Source: Candidatus Nitrospira nitrosa
GTDB taxonomy: Bacteria; Nitrospirota; Nitrospiria; Nitrospirales; Nitrospiraceae
Reading direction: 5' to 3'
NCBI RefSeq assembly: GCF_001458735.1
Contig: NZ_CZQA01000008.1
Location: 620,001 to 684,000 of the forward strand
DNA: 64,000 nt
The notes beneath the pieces are model-generated. The model did no database searches. It was given only the letters and a program-made list of their open reading frames with translations, and was not told the DNA's origin. The first letter of the stretch is position 1; every line of letters begins with the position of its first letter. Shown here piece by piece: positions 52,171 through 64,000 of this stretch. The position numbers and the translations under genes are program-made.

Positions 52171-52387
52171 CGTCGTAAAGCCATCGCCTGAAAACATGTC
52201 ACTCTTCAGTAGGTAAAATAGCCTTCTGAATAAACTCACCGATGCATCGGAAATAGGCGCCGTCTCCCACAAGATAGGCATTATTATGGTTGACCCTTTC
52301 GATCAGGCACCATTCCTTTAGTGGCTTGGCTACGTCGAAAACCTGGCGTCCCAGGATCGATTGGAATGATCTGGGGGGGCATTGTTA

Positions 52388-53965
52388 CTACTTCCCTTCA
52401 GGTTGCACCACTACAGGCATGAGATTCTTTCCAAGAATAGCCGAAGCTGCGATGATGCCACCAAAAAGGGCTCCGCTTACACCAGGCGCCACCACATCCT
52501 GGCCCGTGAGAAAGAGGTTCTTGATCGAGGTATGTGCTCTCAATGCCTGCAAACAAAAACGTTCGGGCGTCGCCGCAAGCCCATAGGCCTCACCGCGCTC
52601 GTGTTTCATGAAGTGTTTTGCACTTAAAGGTGTCGAGAGCTCCACGTAATCCACCTTTCCCCGGATTGCGGGAACATACCGTTCCAATCTCTCCTGTATT
52701 CTCGTTGCAAGTTCCTGTTTAAGACGTCCATAATCGTCGCCACGCTTCATCCACCGTGTATGTTCCCACGCCGAAAAAGAATCGTAGGCCACTGGCACAA
52801 CCGCCTCAATCGTTGCGCGATCCGGAAAGTGCCGTCCGAATTCTGGATCCTTCGCCGATGGGAAGGAAATGTAGAGCACTGGGAACTCTTCAGAAAGATC
52901 GCTATAGAATCGTTTCTCGTTACCATCGTGGTCAAAGGATGGACAGATCATGAGGTTTGTACCATCCAGCCCAAGCGCAGCGTCACTCTGCTTGATACCG
53001 ACGTAGAGCGTCATGTATGCCATCGACCTCGCGATCTTATTCAATTCATTGCAAATCGGTTGTGGCTGCCTGACGAGACGACCAAACGTATTATGTGCGC
53101 CTGCATCACTCACGACTAAAGGAGCTTGCAGAATGCGTCCATCCTTCATACGCACTCCGACTGCCTTGGTGCTCTCAACGAGAATTTCATCGACCTCAGC
53201 ATTGATAATCACCTGTCCACCGCATTGTGCAATCGTCGGGAGAAGCGCTTCAACGATACGTGAAGACCCTCCAACGGGATAACTTCCACCGTTGACATAG
53301 TGACTCACAAGATTGGCATGAATCGCAAAACTGCTTTGCGCTGGAGGAAGGCCGTAGTCAAACCACTGTGCGGTCAGAACGCCGACAAGCTCCTCATTCT
53401 GAGTACACTCACGTAATACCTGTAATGTCGTACGGTTCGCCCATCGCACAAACGGAGCTCGCATTGCTTGCTCAACCTTTTTGGATATGGCACTCGGAAG
53501 CGTCTGATCTGCCATATACCCTCGAGTAGCCAATCGCGCGCTATTCACGGCTCGAAAATAGCTGTCGATTCCTTGCTCCTCTTGAGGAAAGCTGCTTAGC
53601 AAGTTTCTTTTCAACGCTGCCTGGCCCGCCGGAAAGTCATACGTTTTTCCGGCAATAATAGCGCGGTCATAGACCTCAGGCATCGGATGCCATTGCAGTC
53701 GAGAGTCCGTCAGATAATCAAAGCCTGCACGCACCGCAGAACTCGGACCTTCACATTCGCCGACATAGTGAACTCCGACGTCCCACGCATACCCCGGCCG
53801 GGTGAACATATGGGTATACCCGCCAGCTCTGTAGTGCTGCTCCAAGATCAGAACTTTTTTTCCGGCTACCTTCGCCAACAACCCACCTGTTGTGAGGCCA
53901 CCAACACCCGACCCGATAATAATTGCATCCCATCGGTCATCTTTGAGTTGATGATATGGACGCAT
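52388..53965 (-). CDS. CrtI/retinol-saturase-like FAD oxidoreductase
   Basis: 525 residues. FAD loop AIIIGSGVGGLTTGGLLAKV followed by ILEQHYRAGGYTHMFTRPGY; the C-terminal FAD motif LTGQDVVAPGVSGALFGGII. This is the phytoene desaturase/retinol 13,14-reductase superfamily, which adds or removes C=C bonds in isoprenoid or polyene chains. GGAGG eight bases before ATG 53965 supports the start. Its location beside a PKS cluster suggests it could modify the polyketide chain, though a separate role is possible. Confidence 0.85.
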   Translation of the reverse strand: MRPYHQLKDDRWDAIIIGSGVGGLTTGGLLAKVAGKKVLILEQHYRAGGYTHMFTRPGYAWDVGVHYVGECEGPSSAVRAGFDYLTDSRLQWHPMPEVYDRAIIAGKTYDFPAGQAALKRNLLSSFPQEEQGIDSYFRAVNSARLATRGYMADQTLPSAISKKVEQAMRAPFVRWANRTTLQVLRECTQNEELVGVLTAQWFDYGLPPAQSSFAIHANLVSHYVNGGSYPVGGSSRIVEALLPTIAQCGGQVIINAEVDEILVESTKAVGVRMKDGRILQAPLVVSDAGAHNTFGRLVRQPQPICNELNKIARSMAYMTLYVGIKQSDAALGLDGTNLMICPSFDHDGNEKRFYSDLSEEFPVLYISFPSAKDPEFGRHFPDRATIEAVVPVAYDSFSAWEHTRWMKRGDDYGRLKQELATRIQERLERYVPAIRGKVDYVELSTPLSAKHFMKHERGEAYGLAATPERFCLQALRAHTSIKNLFLTGQDVVAPGVSGALFGGIIAASAILGKNLMPVVVQPEGK

Positions 53966-54177
53966 CAGGGAACCTCCAATGTGGACGACGTCATAATTCG
54001 CTATGGACCGTACCGGTTAATTCCTTATGAATATGACCAAACACACCCACCGTCTTTTACAAGGTGCGTAGAACCCCTCTCCCGTACCCACAGTGTCCAC
54101 GTCGCGCCGTGCCTCAAGACCGCTTAGTCATCATGATACACACCGCTTGTTCGATGTATTCCCAGCAAGCCTCTGTG

Positions 54178-55395
54178 CTAAAAGAATCGTACTAACCGCA
54201 CCTGCACGTAATCGTCTCGGCTCGGACCAATCAAAATATCCGATTGAGGAATGTTAAAAAACGCCAAGGATTCCACCTCAATCTTCCAATTGTCCCCCAG
54301 CCGACGACTTCCTTTGATACTTGTAATCGTTGCCCTCGTATCGATGTCCACGGTGACCCCAAACAACACCTGGGAATCTTGTTCATCGTTGAGCGCGAGG
54401 CGCATACCGGCAAAGATGTCATTGTTATTGGGCGTCGGTAGGGTATTCGTGAGTGATGTTCTCGAGAGTTTCTCACGGCCATCATACTGATACTCAAGCA
54501 GGAGCCCCAGATCAACCCCACTCCCCCACACACCTGACTCGGTATATTCCAGCCCGGCAACGGCCGCCGCAAAACGTTTCCCCGGGGCATCACGAGTCAT
54601 GGCTTCCAACTTGAACAGCCATTTCCCCACTGCGCCCTGGATATCCACACCGACCTGGTTAATAAGCTCGTAGATGGGAATCAACGCCGTCGGCCGTATC
54701 AATGAATTCGGCACGAGGCGTGGCTCCCTGGAAATACCGCTAAAATACGAGATCCCAACATCCCATCGCCCAAACGTATGGCTCCACCGTAGGGCCCAAT
54801 CCGGATGCCAATGGTTGGCACCCCGGATTTGCGCATGCTCTGTATCCACTGGTAGCTCAAACCGCAATCGCCCTTTTACAGAGGGGTAGGTGCGTTCACG
54901 GAAGTAGGGAAGATACAACAGATTCAGATTTCCATACCGAGTCGCTACATTCAGATTCACCATCGGCTGCCCAAGCTTGTCTTCTCCTCGAATACTTTCT
55001 ACCTCATCGGTTTGGTTAACGATATCAATCAAGTGCCTCGACTCTGTGACTCCCCAGAACACTTTCCCGACACCGGATTGAATAGTCCATCCATCACCTT
55101 TATGGAGCCAATTCGCTTCTCGCAAATCAAAATGCGATCTATGGCTGTCGAGACTGTCGTACCGCCCGAACGGAATCACCGTGGCACGATGGGCACCATT
55201 GCTCCACTCCTGGCGCAGTTCAGGCTGTATCCATACCGATGGATTCACCAGTCGAGCATTTTGTGCCGGAGATGCGACAGATTCTGTAAACCCTCGCAGA
55301 TCCACCGCTGCAAAACCAGACAGATCTACTGCATACCCATTACATGTTGTAAGGAGTGTCGCACTAACCACGGCCGCAATGAGGTATCTCTTCAT
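54178..55395 (-). CDS. Outer-membrane beta-barrel protein
   Basis: 405 residues. The signal peptide (MKRYLIAAVVSATLLTTCNG) is followed by many alternating aromatic/polar strands (ATVIPFGRYDSLDSHRSHFD, LRWSHTFGRWDVGISYFSG, GVDLGLLLEYQYDGREKLSR), and the protein ends in a terminal Phe (VQVRLVRFF), the outer-membrane insertion signal. It resembles DUF1302-like or porin-like barrels; cargo unknown. A longer frame to 55422 lacks a ribosome-binding site. A palindrome lies just upstream. It probably passes the product of the cluster (inference). Confidence 0.75.
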   Translation of the reverse strand: MKRYLIAAVVSATLLTTCNGYAVDLSGFAAVDLRGFTESVASPAQNARLVNPSVWIQPELRQEWSNGAHRATVIPFGRYDSLDSHRSHFDLREANWLHKGDGWTIQSGVGKVFWGVTESRHLIDIVNQTDEVESIRGEDKLGQPMVNLNVATRYGNLNLLYLPYFRERTYPSVKGRLRFELPVDTEHAQIRGANHWHPDWALRWSHTFGRWDVGISYFSGISREPRLVPNSLIRPTALIPIYELINQVGVDIQGAVGKWLFKLEAMTRDAPGKRFAAAVAGLEYTESGVWGSGVDLGLLLEYQYDGREKLSRTSLTNTLPTPNNNDIFAGMRLALNDEQDSQVLFGVTVDIDTRATITSIKGSRRLGDNWKIEVESLAFFNIPQSDILIGPSRDDYVQVRLVRFF

Positions 55396-55757
55396 GACAA
55401 AACATCGCACTGGAGTGATCACTCAAGCGACCGCTCACTGCTTTCATTCAACCGTATACCCTTATGAAGTCGGACGGCTCACCTCCAGCCAGCTCACGAC
55501 GCAACACGACCACGGATGGGAGCCCGGTGGTGTCCCATCTAATCTCAAATCCACCACTCACATGATTCGGCTAATGACTATAGCTAAGGATCACGGCCTC
55601 GATGGAATATGAGCGGCTCTGAAGATCACGACATTCACGTTTCATCAAAGTGGCATGCGGGACCAAGCACACGCCCCCACTTCCCCTTCCACACTTCTGA
55701 GTAGTACCCACTCCTGCATAATGCGGTGCCACTCCCATACCACTCCGGCAAGCCTTA
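55396..55757. other. Promoter region of the outer-membrane gene
   Basis: 362 bases without a supported gene. It holds the palindrome at 55413-55424 and should carry the promoter of the barrel gene. The lower-GC composition of the cluster is visible here too. Confidence 0.35.
55413..55424. promoter_or_regulatory. Perfect 12-bp palindrome, candidate operator
   Basis: GAGTGATCACTC is perfectly palindromic and lies 17 bases upstream of the start codon (55395) of the barrel gene, in a position suited to a repressor or to translation-initiation control. No regulator gene adjoins it. Confidence 0.35.
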
Positions 55758-56540
55758 TCATTGCACGGACTTCAATGCGCTCTCTGAGAAATCACTATCC
55801 TTAAACCCATTCCGAAACTTGTAGTTCTTACGTGCCAACGTCGAACTTTTCCCATTCTGGTGATTGACCATCTCCAATCGGCTTGCCCGCCAATATTGGT
55901 TGATGTACTGCTGATAGTCATGAAACGTAAGCGTCTTGAATAAGGCATTTTTCCTGTCATAAAACTCGATCTTTCTTGGCTGATAGATGGTTTTATCAAC
56001 CCATTCAATCTGCTTGGAGTAACCAGAGTATTCGTAGGCAGGAATATTTTCGACAACGAAGCAGTCATTCCCATCCACAACATCATCACGCAGGTACCGG
56101 TACTTATATTTATCCAATTCCCAGGAAGCAATATCTTCAAATGCGAATTCGCTGCCCACAAACGGCCCCGACTTATTAACTGAAGAAATCCTTTTAATAC
56201 GTTTCAATTCCGGTAAAAACAGCCACTGGTCGTCCTGCTTCAGACCATGTGAGAATGTCAGTACCGCCGTCCCTCTCACATCGGCTGGCCTATGAAAAAA
56301 TGCCATTTCTTTATCACCGTCTCCAGGCATCTCTAACGTTTTCATAGACAACTCCCGAATACTTTCTTCCCCTTGAGCATTGCGCAGTATGAATGTTGCA
56401 TCGTTTGAACTATCGCCAAATCCCGAGTCGCGTTTGTCGGTTTCTTTGGAAATGGCGTAGCCCTTTTCTTCGGGCGTTTCTGCGTAAACTATAGGTGAGA
56501 GCAGGGCACAGACGATCAGACTAAGTCCAAGTCGGTTCAT
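55758..56540 (-). CDS. LolA-like outer-membrane lipoprotein-sorting protein
   Basis: 260 residues. Signal peptide (MNRLGLSLIVCALLSPIVYA) then the beta-layer family pattern: IRELSMKTLEMPGDGDKEMA, FFHRPADVRGTAVLTFSHGL, DDQWLFLPELKRIKRISSV, and FEDIASWELDKYKYRYLRDD. Such LolA/LppX-like proteins carry lipids across the periplasm and often pair with MMPL exporters. ATG 56540 follows GGAGACAAC. Visibly AT-rich (two 60-base lines at 56101-56220 are about 38% GC). It lies 11 bases after the RND exporter gene. Confidence 0.88.
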   Translation of the reverse strand: MNRLGLSLIVCALLSPIVYAETPEEKGYAISKETDKRDSGFGDSSNDATFILRNAQGEESIRELSMKTLEMPGDGDKEMAFFHRPADVRGTAVLTFSHGLKQDDQWLFLPELKRIKRISSVNKSGPFVGSEFAFEDIASWELDKYKYRYLRDDVVDGNDCFVVENIPAYEYSGYSKQIEWVDKTIYQPRKIEFYDRKNALFKTLTFHDYQQYINQYWRASRLEMVNHQNGKSSTLARKNYKFRNGFKDSDFSESALKSVQ

Positions 56541-56551
56541 GTTGTCTCCTT

Positions 56552-58903
56552 TCACGATTGGATGACCGGCACAGGCTTGGATAACCAGCTTCGCAAGACA
56601 CGCTTACCATCATGGGCGATAAGAATAATCAACGGCAACAAGAGAAACTCCGCAAATAGCCCAAGTGCAAAAATAATTGAGGTTAATAACCCCGTTTCGA
56701 AATTGATTCGAAACGGTGACAACGTGAGCAAGGAAAACCCTGCAATTAACACCGCAGATGTCACCCACAAGGCGTGCCCCACAGTCACAAAGGCATAGGA
56801 CAATGCCTCTTGAGGCTCACAGTGCATCTCTCGCCTGGCATGTTGATACTTACTGAGAAAATGCACGGTATCGTCGACGAGAATCCCTAAGGTCATTGCT
56901 GCCACCACGGACGACGCCATCCCCACCTGTCCCACCATCAATCCCCAAATCCCGAACGCCATACCGGCCGGGAGCAAATTGGGAACCAGGCTCAATAATC
57001 CCAGGCTAACCGACCGCAACACTACAATCATGATGAGCGACACAATCACGATCGATATCAGCTCACCGCTGATCATGCTCACAATGTTGCGTTGTCCAAT
57101 ATGGGCAAAGAGGACGGTCGTACCAGTTCCATCTGCTCGTTTGATGAGCGGAGCATTCCCGGCCAACCACCCCTGTGCCCGTGTCTCCAAATCAATTATC
57201 TCCTGACTAGTGAGACTGCGCAGAGTCACCGTCATGCGCGTTGCGGAGTTGCTCACATTGACACGATTGCTCAAATCCAACCCGTACGGCAATGACATCT
57301 CAAACAACAGCATGTACTGCGCGGCCAACTCCCGGCTTTCAGGCAGACGATACCAGGCCGGGTCATCTCCATGCATGTTTTGATTCAGTCGTTTCAGAAT
57401 ATCGTTCAGGACATACACGTGGAGAACTTCTGGCTGCTGCCGAAACCATTGTGCGAACCGTTCTATCTGTTCAAGAAACGCTGGTTCATGAATCCCCCCA
57501 TGCGCTCCCTGTTCAATGGAGTAATCGATGTTGTACATGCCCGTTAAATTTTTGGTGATGTAATCCGTATCGCTCCGGAAGGCAATGGATTCGTCGAAAT
57601 ACTGCACATAGAGATCATCGAGGCGATTCAGAGGAATACAGGCGAGAACCACGCCCATGAGCGTAGGCACGACGGCGGCCAAGACATAACGATGTTTGGC
57701 AATCATGCCGGCGAATCCCTCAAAGGTTGTGGCAACAGAAGGAGCCACCTGGCCCCGCTTCGCCGGCAACACCATCATCAGCGCAGGTAAAAAGGTAATG
57801 GTCAACACATAAGCCACACCAACTCCCATCGCCGTGATATTGCCCAAATCTCGAAATGGTGGAGCATCGCTGTAATTCATCGACCAGAACCCAACCGCCG
57901 TAGTGAGATTCGTGAAAAAGATCGCTTTGAAATTAACCTGGAGGCTTTCCCTCATCGCAGCCTGCTGAGTCAATCCTCGATTAAGGCCGGCATAATAACC
58001 CGTCAGGATATGGACCGAGTCGGCCACAGCCAACGTCAGCAGAATCGTCGGAGCAGGAATACTCGATGGCGAAAAGACAATCCCCAACCATCCCGCTAAG
58101 CCGATCGCACAAATCACCGAGAGGGTCATCATCGTCGCAGCCGCCGCCATGCCAATGAACGATCGGAGGAACCACCAGAGCCCCACGACAATAATTCCCA
58201 ACATCGTAGGCGTCAGTGTTTTCGCGTCTCGCTCCGATGATTCCGCAAATGCGGTGTCAATCATGAGCGCACCGGTTAAGTGGAACGAGAGCTCAGGATG
58301 CGCCTGTTGCACCTCGTTCACGAGCTCACGAACAAACGTCACGGCATCCTTTGTTTCTGCATTCTGGTCCTTCCCAGGTCGCCGCACGATCAGGTTAAAT
58401 CCCATCACACGACCGTCCGGCGACACCAGGCGATTACGTAACAACGGACTATTCACCGCGACCTGTTGGATTCGCACAAGTTCAGCGGGACTGAGTCGAT
58501 CAGCCCCGTGAACTAAGTCACCTACGAATAAGTCGTCGCCTTGGGCCGTGCTATGTTGAAAGTTTGTGATCGAGTCTACTCGTGTCGCATAGGGTGTCTG
58601 CCAGAGATGTTGGGTGATGTATTCCGCAATGGCCAGATTCTTTGAAGTGAACACATTCCCATCTTGTGGGGTCACCACAAGGAGAATATTGTCATCTCGT
58701 GTATAGGTTTTCTCCAGCGCCTCAAACGCCCGCAACTGTGGATTGTCTTCGCTAAAAAACATTCGATAGTCATTCTTGAACTCGACATATCGCACCCCGT
58801 AAGCTGCTGTCGTCGCTATGACCACAGTCATGAGGATAATCAGCCAGGGCCATCGCACGATCGAATCGGCATACTTATTCAACACAGGTTCACGTCCTCT
58901 CAT
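56552..58903 (-). CDS. RND/MMPL-family lipid exporter
   Basis: 783 residues, about 12 helices in two halves, each with a large periplasmic domain. YVEFKNDYRMFFSEDNPQLR begins the first soluble domain; SSIPAPTILLTLAVADSVHI is an RND helix and GILVDDTVHFLSKYQHARRE another, in the second half, with a conserved Asp pair. It resembles HpnN/MmpL lipid exporters rather than multidrug pumps. The start ATG 58903 is weak; GTG 58885 is an alternative. It sits between AONS and LolA-like genes, a logical export route for the cluster's lipid. Confidence 0.9.
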   Translation of the reverse strand: MRGREPVLNKYADSIVRWPWLIILMTVVIATTAAYGVRYVEFKNDYRMFFSEDNPQLRAFEALEKTYTRDDNILLVVTPQDGNVFTSKNLAIAEYITQHLWQTPYATRVDSITNFQHSTAQGDDLFVGDLVHGADRLSPAELVRIQQVAVNSPLLRNRLVSPDGRVMGFNLIVRRPGKDQNAETKDAVTFVRELVNEVQQAHPELSFHLTGALMIDTAFAESSERDAKTLTPTMLGIIVVGLWWFLRSFIGMAAAATMMTLSVICAIGLAGWLGIVFSPSSIPAPTILLTLAVADSVHILTGYYAGLNRGLTQQAAMRESLQVNFKAIFFTNLTTAVGFWSMNYSDAPPFRDLGNITAMGVGVAYVLTITFLPALMMVLPAKRGQVAPSVATTFEGFAGMIAKHRYVLAAVVPTLMGVVLACIPLNRLDDLYVQYFDESIAFRSDTDYITKNLTGMYNIDYSIEQGAHGGIHEPAFLEQIERFAQWFRQQPEVLHVYVLNDILKRLNQNMHGDDPAWYRLPESRELAAQYMLLFEMSLPYGLDLSNRVNVSNSATRMTVTLRSLTSQEIIDLETRAQGWLAGNAPLIKRADGTGTTVLFAHIGQRNIVSMISGELISIVIVSLIMIVVLRSVSLGLLSLVPNLLPAGMAFGIWGLMVGQVGMASSVVAAMTLGILVDDTVHFLSKYQHARREMHCEPQEALSYAFVTVGHALWVTSAVLIAGFSLLTLSPFRINFETGLLTSIIFALGLFAEFLLLPLIILIAHDGKRVLRSWLSKPVPVIQS

Positions 58904-58924
58904 GTCAATGGCAAATAGGTTTGC

Positions 58925-60259
58925 TCAGCCTTGCTTCAAGGCTGCGAGCTCCTCGGCCAACGTATCCACCGTGTACACCACCTCGGCCTCGGTCAGATTA
59001 CTTGTAATAAAAAATCGCAACCGCGACGCGGCTTCTGACACCGCCGGATACATAATGGGATGCACATTGATCCCGGCGCGCATCAGGCGTTGATTCAGCT
59101 GCAAGCACCGCATTGAGTTACCGACAATCACAGGCACGACACCGGTGCCTCCTGCTAAACCTGTATCCAATCCACGGTGCTTCGCACGCTCGAGAAACAA
59201 CGAAGATCTGGCTCGCAAGCGTTCGGCGCGTTCTGGCTCGCGCATCATGATCTTGGCTGCAGTCAAAGCCGCACCGGCGTTCGCTGGAGAAATCCCCACG
59301 CTAAACAACACCGCACCGGGCGCATTGTATTTAATGTTATCAATCAATGCCTTTGACCCGCAGATATAGCCCCCGCAACTCGCAAACGACTTGCTTAACG
59401 TGCCCATCCAAATCTCTACGTCCCCGGCATTGACCCCAAAATGATCATGAGAACCAAACCCCCGAGGCCCAATCACGCCGGCGGCATGAGCTTCGTCAAC
59501 CATCAACATGCACTTATGCCTTTCCTTCACTTCTATAAACCGCGGTAAATCTGGGATATCGCCGTCCATGCTGTACACACCCTCAATAATGATCAACACA
59601 CGTTCGTGCCGACCACGGTGCTGTTTGAGCAGTGTATCCAGCACGTTCCAGTCGTTGTGCGGGAAGGCCAACCGCTTAGCACCGGAGAGCTGACAACCGG
59701 TAATAATGCTGTTATGGATCAACATGTCGTGCACGAGCAAATCTTGAGGCCCGAACAAATGCCCAATGACGGCCACATTCGTTGAGTACCCACTGACCAA
59801 CGCCACCGCATCTTCTGTGTTATGGATACAAGCCAAGGCTGTTTCTAGCTCACGGTGAAGAGGAATTTCTCCGGACACAATGCGACTGGCGGAAACAGAC
59901 GTCCCGTACTGATCGATGGCTTTCTTCGCCCCTGCGGACACTTCAGGGTGCCCCGATAAGCCCAGATAGTTATAGCCTGAAAAATTGATGTACTCTTTGC
60001 CACAGATCATGGTGAGATGATCGCTGATTCCATCATGTGCACTAAAATATGGATTCTCTACCGCCAGTGCCTTGAACATTTCCCCGGTTTCGGTTAACAG
60101 ACGACATCCTGGAAACTTTTCTACACGGCACCACTCCTCCGAAATCTCTCCATTGACACCCTCTCGGCTCTTCTCATTCTCCTTACGAAGCCAGAGCTCC
60201 TTCAGCAAGGCCCGTTTTTGAGCCTCCGTCATCGCTGACACATCTGTTGTCTGTTTCAT
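58925..60259 (-). CDS. Alpha-oxoamine synthase (AONS/ALAS/SPT-like)
   Basis: 444 residues, PLP fold type I. YNYLGLSGHPEVSAGAKKAI, then LVDEAHAAGVIGPRGFGSHD, and the PLP lysine in MGTLSKSFASCGGYICG. The family condenses an amino acid with an acyl thioester and releases CO2. Position directly after the PKS ACP, with start overlapping the PKS stop as TAATG, implies chain release from the ACP to give an alpha-amino ketone, as in sphingolipid or prodigiosin-type pathways (inference). Amino acid unknown. Confidence 0.9.
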   Translation of the reverse strand: MKQTTDVSAMTEAQKRALLKELWLRKENEKSREGVNGEISEEWCRVEKFPGCRLLTETGEMFKALAVENPYFSAHDGISDHLTMICGKEYINFSGYNYLGLSGHPEVSAGAKKAIDQYGTSVSASRIVSGEIPLHRELETALACIHNTEDAVALVSGYSTNVAVIGHLFGPQDLLVHDMLIHNSIITGCQLSGAKRLAFPHNDWNVLDTLLKQHRGRHERVLIIIEGVYSMDGDIPDLPRFIEVKERHKCMLMVDEAHAAGVIGPRGFGSHDHFGVNAGDVEIWMGTLSKSFASCGGYICGSKALIDNIKYNAPGAVLFSVGISPANAGAALTAAKIMMREPERAERLRARSSLFLERAKHRGLDTGLAGGTGVVPVIVGNSMRCLQLNQRLMRAGINVHPIMYPAVSEAASRLRFFITSNLTEAEVVYTVDTLAEELAALKQG

Positions 60260-63200
60260 TATGCAGTTTCCTTTTCCTGCAACATTTTGTCGAGAAGGAT
60301 GTCGATATCCAAGGCCGACATCCGATCAATGATCGATGGATCCTCGGTCTGCGGATCAACACTCTTGTTCGTTACAGCCTGAATTGTGCGCTCCATTAAT
60401 AACTCCGCAAGATGAAGCAGGTTCTTGCTTCTCATGAGTTCCAATGTTGAAATCCGCACGCCAAACACCTGGTCGATCGCCGCCTGCAACTCGACGGACA
60501 TCAGGGAATCCACTCCCATTTGCGCCAGTGAATGCTGTAGGTCGACCTGGGACAAGGGCATGCGCAGCACCCGTGCAACCTGCTCCGCAACGGCTTGCCC
60601 CATCGCAGCCGCACGCTCATGCACCGGCAGTTCGCTGATAGCCTGACAGCGCTCAGTCATTGAGTTGCTGTTCTCACCTCCACCTGTGAGCGTGGAAAAC
60701 CTTGGTGCATTCCCGCCAGTCGGCTCGAATTCTCTCCAGCGTGGCCAACTACAATTCATGATCCCAACTTGCGGGAGATCGTTCTCACGCAGATGGGCCC
60801 ACCCCTCTAAGGCCTGTTCGGCAGTAATGGCCGACATCCCCATCAATTCCAGATGCTTTACGACGTCATCGTTCTCAGTCGCCATCCCTGTTGCGATGGC
60901 CCCCCAATTCACAGAAACACCAGCCAAGCCCGCAGCAGAGCGATGATGCGCTAAGGCATCTAGGAAGGTATTCGCCGCTACGTAGCTCGCTTGCCGTGCA
61001 TTGCCAATGAGCGAAGAGACCGATGAGAAGAGCACAAAATGATCAAGTTGAGACTTAAGCGTATGCGTATGCAAGTACCACGCGCTCAGGGCTTTCGCCT
61101 TCATGACTGTGGCGATACGATCTGGATTCAGCTCTGCGATTGGCGCATCATCCAAGATGCCTGCCGCATGAAACACACCCTTGAGGGGAGGGAACTGATT
61201 AGCTACTTGTGCCAACGTCTCCTCCACCTGCCTTTCGTCCGACATGTCCGCCGCAATTGCCAACACGTTGACCCCCTGTGACTCCAGGGACTGAACTGCG
61301 GCTTTGGCATGTTCCGCTGCGGCCCCACGCCGCCCCACCAAGGCCAGATACCTCGCACCACGTTTCGCCAACCACGTCGCCGTCTCCAGACCAAAGCCTC
61401 CAAACCCACCGGTGATCAAATATGTGCCGTCGGTTTTGAAGAATGGAGTGACGCGATCATCAACGACCTCAATCGACGCTCGATCAATGAGTGAGACGAT
61501 AGCTTCGCTGCTTCCCCTTTTCTCATTCTCTCTAGATGGTCCGCTAAGCCCCTCTTCCACTGAGACAATCTGCGACACCGAGGGCGATCCAACTTGATGA
61601 GTAAGTATCTGTCCAACTTTGCCAAACAATTCCCCAAAAAGTTGAGGGGCCGTCAATGCCAGTTTCACCGCATCGATGATCGTACAGCTGCCCAGACCTC
61701 CCATTACTGACCCTCTGGTCGCCCCATCCGCAAAGATAAGTTCCTGTGTATCTGGTGACAGAGAATTGGCAATCAGCGTGTGCTCTTTGGTATGGATCCC
61801 ATGGACCCATGCGCGGATATGTTGGAGTTGCCTAATACCCTCCGACCATGACGCACTGTCAGGTTTGTTGAACAAGAGCATCACAGGTTCGCCGTTTAAG
61901 CCTTCGAGCCCCTCCGTGGTAGTGTAGAGATAGGGTTTGGCACCCAACCAACGGGCAATTCGGTGAGTTGCGATGGCACGAGCTCCCAATGCGGCATCGA
62001 TCAGCACGGTCTCCCCGGGAATAAGACGAGCAATCGCCTGCAGCGCATAGTACGCAGAGAAGAACGTCGTGGGAACTGCAGCCGTTTCTGAATCGTCAAA
62101 CCCCCGGTAGAGATCGACTGAAAAGACCCGATCAATGGGACAGACGACATGCGACGCCGGTCGCCCTTCCGCAGCGATCAATACCTTGTCTCCAATCTTC
62201 CACTTGCCGACTGCTTCCCCGACGGCCGTAACCGTTCCCGTGGCAAAATACCCTCGCACCTCCTCTGTGGTTGCACCGGCCTCGAGCTGAACACTGCTGC
62301 TGTTGATGTATTCGAGCCCCACCACGACTTCACCGACTTGCGGGATCGGTATTGGCATCGCCTGAAATGTGGGACGCCCCGTTCCATGAAGGCGGAACGC
62401 CTCTACCGCATCCGCCATTACCGTCCTCCGGTCGGATACCGCTGCATCGACCGCCAACCGTTCCAGACGATGCACATACCGTCCATCGTCACGAAGCACC
62501 ACGTCATCCTCCCGATCATCGGCAAGTATTTCGTGCGCTAATGCCCTGACATTGGGATCCATTGCCGCCACATCCACCAAGGTGCAGCGGAGAGCAGGAT
62601 GCTCATTGAACGTCACTCGCGCAAGTCCCACCAACGAGGTCTGCGCCAGACCATGAATCCTCTCAGTCGGTGGGACGACCTGCGCCCCTTGCGTCACGAT
62701 GTACAATCGTGGAGATCGTTCCTCAAACATACTGGTCAAGAGCTGAATGACTTGTACGGCAAGTCCGGTCCGAGCAATGCCGGCTGGATCATCGGTATCG
62801 GCAGGGTCCTGCGTTCCCCAGCAGTACACAACGCCATCAAGATGCCGCTCTTGAGCTTGCTGCAATACACTGCGTAACCGCTCGATCTCTCGTGATCCGA
62901 AGCTCGGGATCTCTTCACCTTCGTGCTCCGCATACGTGGGGTACGGCACACGGATTACCGTATTCTCAACATGTGTTTCCAGCGCATCGCACAGCGCATC
63001 ACCAAGCCCGATCCTATCGGTAAGAACGATCCAGGTGCCTGTTTTTGCCTGACTAGGCGGTAGTGGTTGCGAGTTCCATTCCCAGGCATAGGCCCATTGC
63101 TTCAGCTGCTCAATCGGATTCCCATGTTGCGCGGCAAGCCCACGACAGCGCAGTCCCTCGACTGATACCCATACCTTGCCGGTATCATCGAAGAGCTGCA

Positions 63201-64000
63201 GTTCACCAACGAGGTCTTCGTCGGTAACAGTGGTAAGCTGGCCATGGCACCACAATGCCTTCCCCGGTTTGCCGTAATACGTCAGCCGCTTAATCCCTAC
63301 AGGCATGTAGAATTTGTCGCTTCCCTCCAGCGTCACGATCAATGACTGGAAGCAGCCATCCAGGAGACTCGGGTATAAGTGATATGCGGCCTCGTCCCCG
63401 CTGAATTCCTGGCTCAACTCAATTCGGGCCAGCACTTCACCCTGCCCGCGTTGCAGCCCTCGAATGGTTCGGAACGAGGGTCCATACCACAAGCCGCGCT
63501 CGGCTAACCCCTCATACAACTTCTCAATATTCACGCTTTCGCCGCAGCGGCCAGTAATGGCATCCTTATCGATCACCAGGCTTTCCGTCTCCTGAATGGC
63601 AAAGATATTCCCCGACGCATTGAGTTGCCAGTTCTGTTGCTCGGTACTTTCATGGCTGTAAAATCCATACTCCCCACTGGTCTGATCAAGCTCCACATGC
63701 ACAATCTGATCAGCCCCACCGGCATTTGGCATCAAGGCTTGATGAAACTGTAGTTGGACCAATGCGCATCGAGCATCCCCCGTGACCTGCTGAAATGCGG
63801 CCAACCCGGCCTCAACATAGGCGGCACCGGGCATCACGACTAATCCATCCACCTGATGATCATTGAGATAGGGGAGAATTTGCCCATTGACTGCGGCCTC
63901 CCACATTGGTCGTGGGTTTGGCACACGACGGTCCAGCAATGGATGAAGCGATTCGCCGATGCGATCTACTTGTGACTCCGCGTCCTCACTCCAATACACT
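60259..64000 (-). CDS. Type I polyketide synthase, C-terminal part (DH-ER-KR-ACP), partial
   Basis: 1,246 residues seen, N-terminal part beyond the right edge. DH at about 15-300: catalytic His48 in LNDHQVDGLVVMPGAAYVE and Asp214 in SLLDGCFQS. ER-like region about 545-830 where the NADPH loop expected as GGVGxAA reads AALGARAIATHRI. KR about 855-1035 with TGGFGGFGLETATWL, an LDD motif (B-type stereo) and catalytic FSSVSSLIG and SYVAANTFLD. ACP with attachment Ser in GVDSLMSVELQ (about 1162). No thioesterase follows; the downstream AONS is a likely release enzyme. KS and AT should lie to the right of the window. Confidence 0.92.
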   Translation of the reverse strand, partial: VYWSEDAESQVDRIGESLHPLLDRRVPNPRPMWEAAVNGQILPYLNDHQVDGLVVMPGAAYVEAGLAAFQQVTGDARCALVQLQFHQALMPNAGGADQIVHVELDQTSGEYGFYSHESTEQQNWQLNASGNIFAIQETESLVIDKDAITGRCGESVNIEKLYEGLAERGLWYGPSFRTIRGLQRGQGEVLARIELSQEFSGDEAAYHLYPSLLDGCFQSLIVTLEGSDKFYMPVGIKRLTYYGKPGKALWCHGQLTTVTDEDLVGELQLFDDTGKVWVSVEGLRCRGLAAQHGNPIEQLKQWAYAWEWNSQPLPPSQAKTGTWIVLTDRIGLGDALCDALETHVENTVIRVPYPTYAEHEGEEIPSFGSREIERLRSVLQQAQERHLDGVVYCWGTQDPADTDDPAGIARTGLAVQVIQLLTSMFEERSPRLYIVTQGAQVVPPTERIHGLAQTSLVGLARVTFNEHPALRCTLVDVAAMDPNVRALAHEILADDREDDVVLRDDGRYVHRLERLAVDAAVSDRRTVMADAVEAFRLHGTGRPTFQAMPIPIPQVGEVVVGLEYINSSSVQLEAGATTEEVRGYFATGTVTAVGEAVGKWKIGDKVLIAAEGRPASHVVCPIDRVFSVDLYRGFDDSETAAVPTTFFSAYYALQAIARLIPGETVLIDAALGARAIATHRIARWLGAKPYLYTTTEGLEGLNGEPVMLLFNKPDSASWSEGIRQLQHIRAWVHGIHTKEHTLIANSLSPDTQELIFADGATRGSVMGGLGSCTIIDAVKLALTAPQLFGELFGKVGQILTHQVGSPSVSQIVSVEEGLSGPSRENEKRGSSEAIVSLIDRASIEVVDDRVTPFFKTDGTYLITGGFGGFGLETATWLAKRGARYLALVGRRGAAAEHAKAAVQSLESQGVNVLAIAADMSDERQVEETLAQVANQFPPLKGVFHAAGILDDAPIAELNPDRIATVMKAKALSAWYLHTHTLKSQLDHFVLFSSVSSLIGNARQASYVAANTFLDALAHHRSAAGLAGVSVNWGAIATGMATENDDVVKHLELMGMSAITAEQALEGWAHLRENDLPQVGIMNCSWPRWREFEPTGGNAPRFSTLTGGGENSNSMTERCQAISELPVHERAAAMGQAVAEQVARVLRMPLSQVDLQHSLAQMGVDSLMSVELQAAIDQVFGVRISTLELMRSKNLLHLAELLMERTIQAVTNKSVDPQTEDPSIIDRMSALDIDILLDKMLQEKETA

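Follow-up and report, generated by a model that had tools for sequence, protein, structure and literature searches.

The stretch of DNA analysed here (the window) comprises 64,000 nucleotides of 'Candidatus Nitrospira nitrosa', whose genome measures 4.42 Mb, and spans bases 620001–684000 of contig 8. Towards its right end the minus strand encodes, in this order, a type I polyketide synthase (PKS), an alpha-oxoamine synthase (AONS), an MMPL-type transporter of the resistance–nodulation–division (RND) class, a LolA-like periplasmic carrier, an outer-membrane barrel and a CrtI-like oxidoreductase (Table 1). The PKS continues beyond the window, where a preliminary description of the sequence had recommended looking for ketosynthase (KS) and acyltransferase (AT) domains. 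Both are present, and completing the open reading frame (ORF) from the genome sequence yields a full PKS for which Pfam recognises KS, AT, dehydratase (DH), ketoreductase (KR) and acyl carrier protein (ACP) domains. The ACP-terminated PKS overlaps the AONS gene as that description proposed, the stop and start codons having one A in common within TAATG (60261–60257), and the MMPL and LolA-like genes overlap by 4 bases. The LolA-like gene has a GC content of 44.9% versus 51–57% in the adjoining genes. Scans for promoters and terminators gave no surplus over shuffled sequence.

Table 1 Features of the PKS–AONS–transport locus (window coordinates; values above 64000 lie beyond the right edge)
Feature	Position	Strand	Basis or remark
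Type I PKS	60259–66669 (window part 60259–64000)	minus	2136-aa ORF; KS-AT-DH-pseudoER-KR-ACP
PKS dehydratase domain, residues 909–1182	63124–63945	minus	Pfam PS-DH and PKS_DH_N; motifs HxxxGxxxxP and DxxxQ
Degenerate enoylreductase domain, residues 1425–1745	61435–62397	minus	ER fold; NADPH glycine motif gone
PKS ketoreductase domain, residues 1748–1926	60892–61428	minus	Pfam KR, 217 bits; motifs
C-terminal ACP, residues 2025–2091	60397–60597	minus	Pfam; GVDSL motif
AONS, 444 aa	58925–60259	minus	profile matches; start overlaps PKS stop
MMPL/HAE3-like RND inner-membrane transporter, 783 aa	56552–58903	minus	Pfam, NCBIfam
LolA-like periplasmic carrier, 265 aa	55758–56555	minus	PF17131, 202.9 bits (cut-off 30)
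Outer-membrane beta-barrel, 414 aa, terminal Phe	54178–55422	minus	predicted barrel; no Pfam family
CrtI/CRTISO-like FAD oxidoreductase, accessory	52388–53965	minus	profile match; homologues in other clusters
FMO gene	67802–69259	divergent from PKS	beyond right window edge
89-base direct repeat	52266–52354	none	90% identical to 3' part of alpha/beta-hydrolase gene at 69460–69548, across the insert

The catalytic motifs of the KS, AT, DH, KR and ACP domains are intact, so the PKS is not the inactive enzyme that the preliminary description had named as fatal to its reading. The exception is the enoylreductase (ER). Its NADPH-binding glycine motif (GGVG or GGIG) occurs in all 40 PKSs of the capsule/Sga type and also in the Sinorhizobium meliloti and Pseudomonas plasmid copies; read from the printed motifs, it is gone in 18 of the 20 MMPL-linked PKSs, with a partial motif (EGVGLAA) retained in Thiomargarita and an altered one in Rhodocyclaceae. 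We scored ER decay on 162 columns conserved in the 40 capsule/Sga-type control PKSs. The tight clade of this alignment (nine proteins) keeps 20–27% of the conserved ER columns, Rhodocyclaceae 30% and Thiomargarita 59%. Elsewhere in the tight-clade proteins the figures are 78–81% for KS, 74–78% for AT, 82–88% for KR, 56–65% for DH and 52–62% for ACP. The predicted structure of the ER domain, of good confidence (pLDDT 81), has the CurK enoylreductase as its top structural match. The domain thus retains its fold but has probably lost cofactor binding. In the AONS, residues H182, D255, H258, K290 and R415, which have pyridoxal phosphate-related and catalytic roles in this family, are kept in all 85 aligned AONS, BioF and KBL sequences.

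The MMPL protein is distantly related to HpnN and MmpL4/5, and the nearest solved chain to the LolA-like protein is 3bk5 (285 bits). For the barrel, a model of moderate confidence (pLDDT 71) has AlgE and porins as structural matches, with TM-scores of about 0.4–0.6.

To define the distribution of the locus we scanned 84,980 species and used the best 80 of 264 relatives. Close homologues of the AONS occur in 4 of 175 Nitrospiraceae genomes (at least 78% identity), in the Nitrosomonas family in 12 of 125 (at least 69%) and in the Methylobacter family in 4 of 237 (at least 75%); named hosts that are not metagenome-assembled genomes (MAGs) include Methylobacter luteus and Nitrosomonas oligotropha Nm75. 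The comparison rests on 22 loci from as many genomes: 4 from Nitrospira, 4 from methanotrophs, 12 from Nitrosomonadaceae, and one each from Thiomargarita and a Rhodocyclaceae MAG (L039, L041, L049 and L047 were left out as second copies of these loci). The MMPL-like exporter, LolA-like carrier and barrel that the preliminary description placed after the AONS follow it in all 22, in constant order, a recurrence in several lineages that exceeds chance. A PKS is present in 21, being broken or truncated at the sequence edge in some and lying on the opposite strand in L186. AONS relatives appear in 14 plasmid records, every one at less than 60% identity. Other relatives were also seen: 32 of the 237 Methylobacter-family genomes have an AONS at 50–55% identity, the capsule/Sga-type range; one genome of that family (G311, L193) has an AONS at 61% with a partial PKS and no MMPL gene in the fetched stretch; and in a further Nitrospira genome (G075, L038 8708–10084) an AONS of the capsule type, acquired separately, adjoins genes for capsule export.

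In a tree of 85 AONS-family rows, on which a PKS was scored present only for an ORF of at least 1,100 amino acids (broken or contig-cut PKSs counting as absent), the 14 MMPL-linked AONSs form a single clade (support 97/82). Its neighbours are the capsule/Sga-type clade and a clade from Cyanobacteria and Planctomycetes, whose AONSs are linked to fatty acyl-AMP ligase-like (FAAL) and ACP genes in both loci checked. A second tree places the 22 cluster rows in one group (100/99) against nine outgroup rows, and within it the four Nitrospira rows cluster with three methanotroph rows (97/96), which indicates that the cluster has moved between phyla. Each of the four Nitrospira copies adjoins a short-chain dehydrogenase/reductase (SDR) gene that belongs to the core of the genus (76 of 79 genomes). 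At the corresponding cluster-free site in five genomes, the two flanks abut or overlap by at most about 145 bases in four and lie 1.4 kb apart in the fifth (G116). From these sequence comparisons we conclude that Nitrospira gained the cluster horizontally, at one chromosomal site. The partial hydrolase copy to the left of the insert (Table 1) is confined, among the four Nitrospira holders, to the window genome, and no tRNA attachment site was found in the four stretches scanned. Relative to another holder (G058, L034), the window is a mosaic between 54000 and 60600: the segment from AONS to barrel is 76–82% identical, most of the PKS and the flanks are about 97% identical, and PKS identity dips to 80–86% near 62400–63600, a pattern that suggests allele replacement. 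The operon is thus real, complete, mobile and conserved.

Several accessory genes accompany it. Genes for an FMO, a CrtI-like protein and an Sfp-type phosphopantetheinyl transferase are cluster-linked in 7, 4 and 11 of the 22 loci, respectively. The CrtI-like gene, rightly assigned to the cluster in the preliminary description, is therefore accessory; none of the other three Nitrospira loci has it, and an initial view of it as an oddity of the window genome was overturned by homologues (46–48% identity) that lie between PKS and AONS in three Nitrosomonadaceae clusters. The FMO had likewise been taken for a mere flanking gene until its linkage in seven loci became apparent. The motif FxGxxxHxxxY, which marks N- or S-oxygenation in such enzymes, is found in all seven cluster FMOs. 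Among 190 mostly AONS-centred loci, relatives of the FMO and CrtI-like proteins (E 1e-10) are confined to MMPL-type clusters, and closer FMO relatives (E 1e-150) occur in 3 of the 79 Nitrospira genomes, all within the four cluster holders (Fisher p 5e-5). Two transferase genes of the Sfp type lie outside the cluster in the window genome. By eye, an Sfp-type gene in L137 (G000:C9:381247) adjoins thioesterase-like and TauD-like frames and is perhaps part of a further biosynthetic cluster of this genome.

Ketoreduction followed by dehydration without enoyl reduction yields a trans-2-enoyl chain, and AONS enzymes couple an acyl chain to an amino acid and release CO2. We therefore propose that the mono-modular PKS lengthens an acyl chain and that, because KR and DH would act while the ER is dead, a trans double bond would remain after every extension. 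The chain would then leave the C-terminal ACP when the AONS condenses it decarboxylatively with an amino acid, most likely serine by analogy with PfSgaB (see below), to give an alpha,beta-unsaturated alpha-amino ketone. The FAAL and ACP genes ahead of the sister AONSs likewise indicate ACP-bound substrates. Extending a ready-made fatty acyl starter once would give a base resembling 3-ketosphingosine, and doing so several times a polyenyl amino ketone. The FMO and CrtI-like enzymes may modify the lipid in some hosts, and the RND pump, LolA-like carrier and barrel would carry it from the inner to the outer membrane. On balance we favour, with some confidence, the view that the locus is a self-contained, horizontally acquired operon for an unsaturated amino-ketone lipid that is taken to the outer membrane. 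This keeps the proposal of the preliminary description, a polyketide lipid of the amino-ketone type that is carried to the outer membrane, as the best-supported reading. In it, the gene content, its conservation, the motifs, the ER decay and the transfer are observed, and we infer the product, the amino acid, the tailoring and the direction of transport.

A number of observations weigh against this interpretation. The amino-ketone lipid is a prediction from sequence for every member of the group. The cluster contains neither a head-group enzyme nor a dedicated ketone reductase: SgaC/RkpH-like (KDSR-type) reductases were found in none of the 14 MMPL-type loci tested, other than weak matches to the SDR that flanks the Nitrospira copies, which we rejected as the ketone reductase since it is a genus-wide core gene. 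AT domains carry HAFH when selective for malonyl and YASH when selective for methylmalonyl units; the motif here is VPYHS, which matches neither. In Nitrosovibrio Nv17 (L081) the AONS and exporter have no PKS within 5.3 kb upstream. The MMPL protein scores 165.6 bits against the HAE3 model TIGR00921 (cut-off 351.9) and the barrel falls in no Pfam family, so the case for export, which we regard as probable, is built on synteny and predicted fold.

We considered other roles for the AONS. BioF is its highest-scoring NCBIfam model (336 bits), as would be expected of a biotin-type enzyme next to an inactive PKS, but this score is under the cut-off of 426, and a genuine BioF encoded in the same genome (C9:65369) exceeds it at 477 bits. 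A further family member at C8:495422 adjoins a threonine-dehydrogenase-like gene and by eye reads as KBL. With these separate genes present we rejected a biotin or threonine role for the cluster AONS. The ORFs listed near the insert include none of the bio genes that the preliminary description expected were the AONS to serve biotin synthesis, and the PKS motifs outside the ER are intact; the probability of this explanation is negligible. The AONS also falls under the NCBIfam cut-offs of the bacterial serine palmitoyltransferase equivalogs (279, 232 and 187 bits for cut-offs of 640, 500 and 670). AONS-family enzymes also make diffusible alpha-amino-ketone signals of the CAI-1/LAI-1 kind, which the export genes might secrete. 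The AONS does match the CqsA-type model NF005526, but at 153 bits it is far under the cut-off of 428, and a route through a LolA-like carrier and barrel would better suit a water-insoluble lipid; we think a signal improbable.

Somewhat less improbable, though still unlikely, is that the product is an ordinary saturated sphinganine of the PfSgaAB type, with enoyl reduction supplied in trans by FabI or by a CrtI/retinol-saturase-like FAD enzyme. Related enzymes do yield saturated sphinganines, and the FAD oxidoreductase is cluster-linked in four loci. However, the ER in cis decays while the other PKS domains are retained, the remaining 18 loci lack the CrtI-like gene and offer no alternative trans-ER candidate among the conserved genes, and an SgaC/RkpH-like reductase is absent save for the Nitrospira core SDR. 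The MMPL, LolA-like and barrel genes might instead be a separate cassette for lipid or hydrocarbon transport, possibly inward, that merely accompanies the PKS–AONS pair. Similar cassettes of a pump, a LolA-family protein and an outer-membrane protein go with hydrocarbon metabolism, as in AmeABCD (PMC6394551), and Nv17 has an exporter and AONS without a PKS. Yet the order of AONS and transport genes is the same at all 22 loci, even after transfer between phyla, and in Nv17 itself the transport genes remain with the AONS, so that we give this possibility as little credence as the signal.

The nearest biosynthetic precedent is PfSgaAB(C) of Pseudomonas fluorescens MYb115, for which PKS–AOS sphinganine synthesis was reported in 2025; in the sections of that report considered here, PfSgaB condenses acyl thioesters with serine almost exclusively and the cluster yields C24–C28 sphinganines (PMC12134224). 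The preliminary description knew of no Nitrospira product of this sort. A related system thus has known products, and the operon is not peculiar to Nitrospira, being found also in ammonia- and methane-oxidising Proteobacteria. Both systems pair a mono-modular type I PKS with an adjacent AONS, and the pair of P. putida 31753 (L114), used as a stand-in for MYb115, is 37% (PKS, over 1,184 residues) and 53% (AONS) identical. The cluster departs from PfSgaABC in its dead ER, its dedicated RND–LolA–barrel genes and its hosts, and in lacking both a KDSR-type reductase and capsule genes. RkpA/RkpG/RkpH of Sinorhizobium shares the order of PKS then AONS, with the S. meliloti AONS 46% identical to ours, but the S. 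meliloti pair has an intact ER motif and is accompanied by an SDR and a capsule gene; no capsule biosynthesis or export genes were recognised by eye in the ORFs listed around our insert. The Rkp-type and Pseudomonas PKS–AONS loci L134, L135 and L114 have SDR genes in common, and L134 and L135 also have capsule genes. L135 further carries an LTA-synthase-family gene, whose product is a candidate for the phosphoglycerol transfer behind the PG-sphingolipids reported from MYb115. WcbT of Burkholderia, whose wcb genes (PMC3908369) were compared by description only, is presumably the AONS-type partner of WcbR, and these capsule lipid genes likewise place a PKS before an AONS.

For the transport genes, AmeABCD is the nearest worked example. 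This monoterpene efflux system unites an HAE3 RND protein, a LolA-family periplasmic protein and an outer-membrane protein in a single cassette (PMC6394551), and the cluster likewise combines an inner-membrane RND protein, which scores under the HAE3 cut-off, with a LolA-superfamily periplasmic protein (PF17131) and a predicted outer-membrane barrel. It differs in substrate, in lacking a DUF1302 match (AmeA is a DUF1302 protein) and in having, among its conserved genes, neither an AmeC-like gene nor any fourth one for transport. The FAAL–ACP–AONS genes of Cyanobacteria and Planctomycetes, from the neighbouring AONS clade, also present the acyl chain on an ACP; loading there is by a fatty acyl-AMP-ligase-like enzyme, with no such PKS and no MMPL–LolA–barrel set. 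The ligase, ACP and AONS are fused in a Planctomycetes locus (L104 7820–11281) and encoded by adjacent genes in Planktothrix (L066 5279–11305), apparently a separate acyl-ACP amino-ketone pathway. 'Ca. Nitrospira nitrosa' has been noted as the sole Nitrospira species with polyketide clusters (PMC9765116), for which the sections considered give no description; the parts of PMC5767232 and PMC3870968 consulted hold nothing on the operon, and no description of it was found in the literature searched. The class of chemistry has been known since 2025, and this branch and its coupling to export are apparently undescribed in that literature.

The window genome has two AmoA genes, and the organism is therefore probably a complete ammonia oxidiser. 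AmoA/PmoA (PF02461) was searched for in the holder genomes known before seven Nitrosomonadaceae and one methanotroph were added. It was found in three of the four Nitrospira holders (not in G083) and in five of ten others, these being the tight-clade genomes not titled MAG; it was not found in three Methylobacter and Nitrosomonas MAGs, Thiomargarita or the Rhodocyclaceae MAG. By simple counts, there is no sign of a tie to ammonia oxidation within the genus (AmoA in 49 of 79 genomes versus three of the four holders). The association with ammonia and methane oxidisers is strong by taxonomy, if not shown for every genome, and a common habitat could be enough to account for it.

More tentatively, we may be seeing a distinct class of outer-membrane lipids, natively delta-4-unsaturated sphingosine-like or polyenyl amino ketones, that would be N-oxygenated by the FMO in some hosts, exported by the RND–LolA–barrel route and spread by horizontal transfer between bacteria that oxidise ammonia or methane, comammox Nitrospira among them, with a role linked to the oxidative way of life of these hosts. 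The cluster represents a lineage separate from the sphingolipid PKSs described in 2025 (PMC12134224). In this lineage enoyl reduction has been lost and a probable envelope route of its own acquired, and it is found mainly in organisms that carry out the first steps of nitrification and methane oxidation. If our interpretation is correct, these organisms would have an unsuspected outer-membrane lipid, a possible biomarker, and the operon would provide a complete, co-inherited candidate gene set for the passage of a sphingoid lipid across the Gram-negative envelope.

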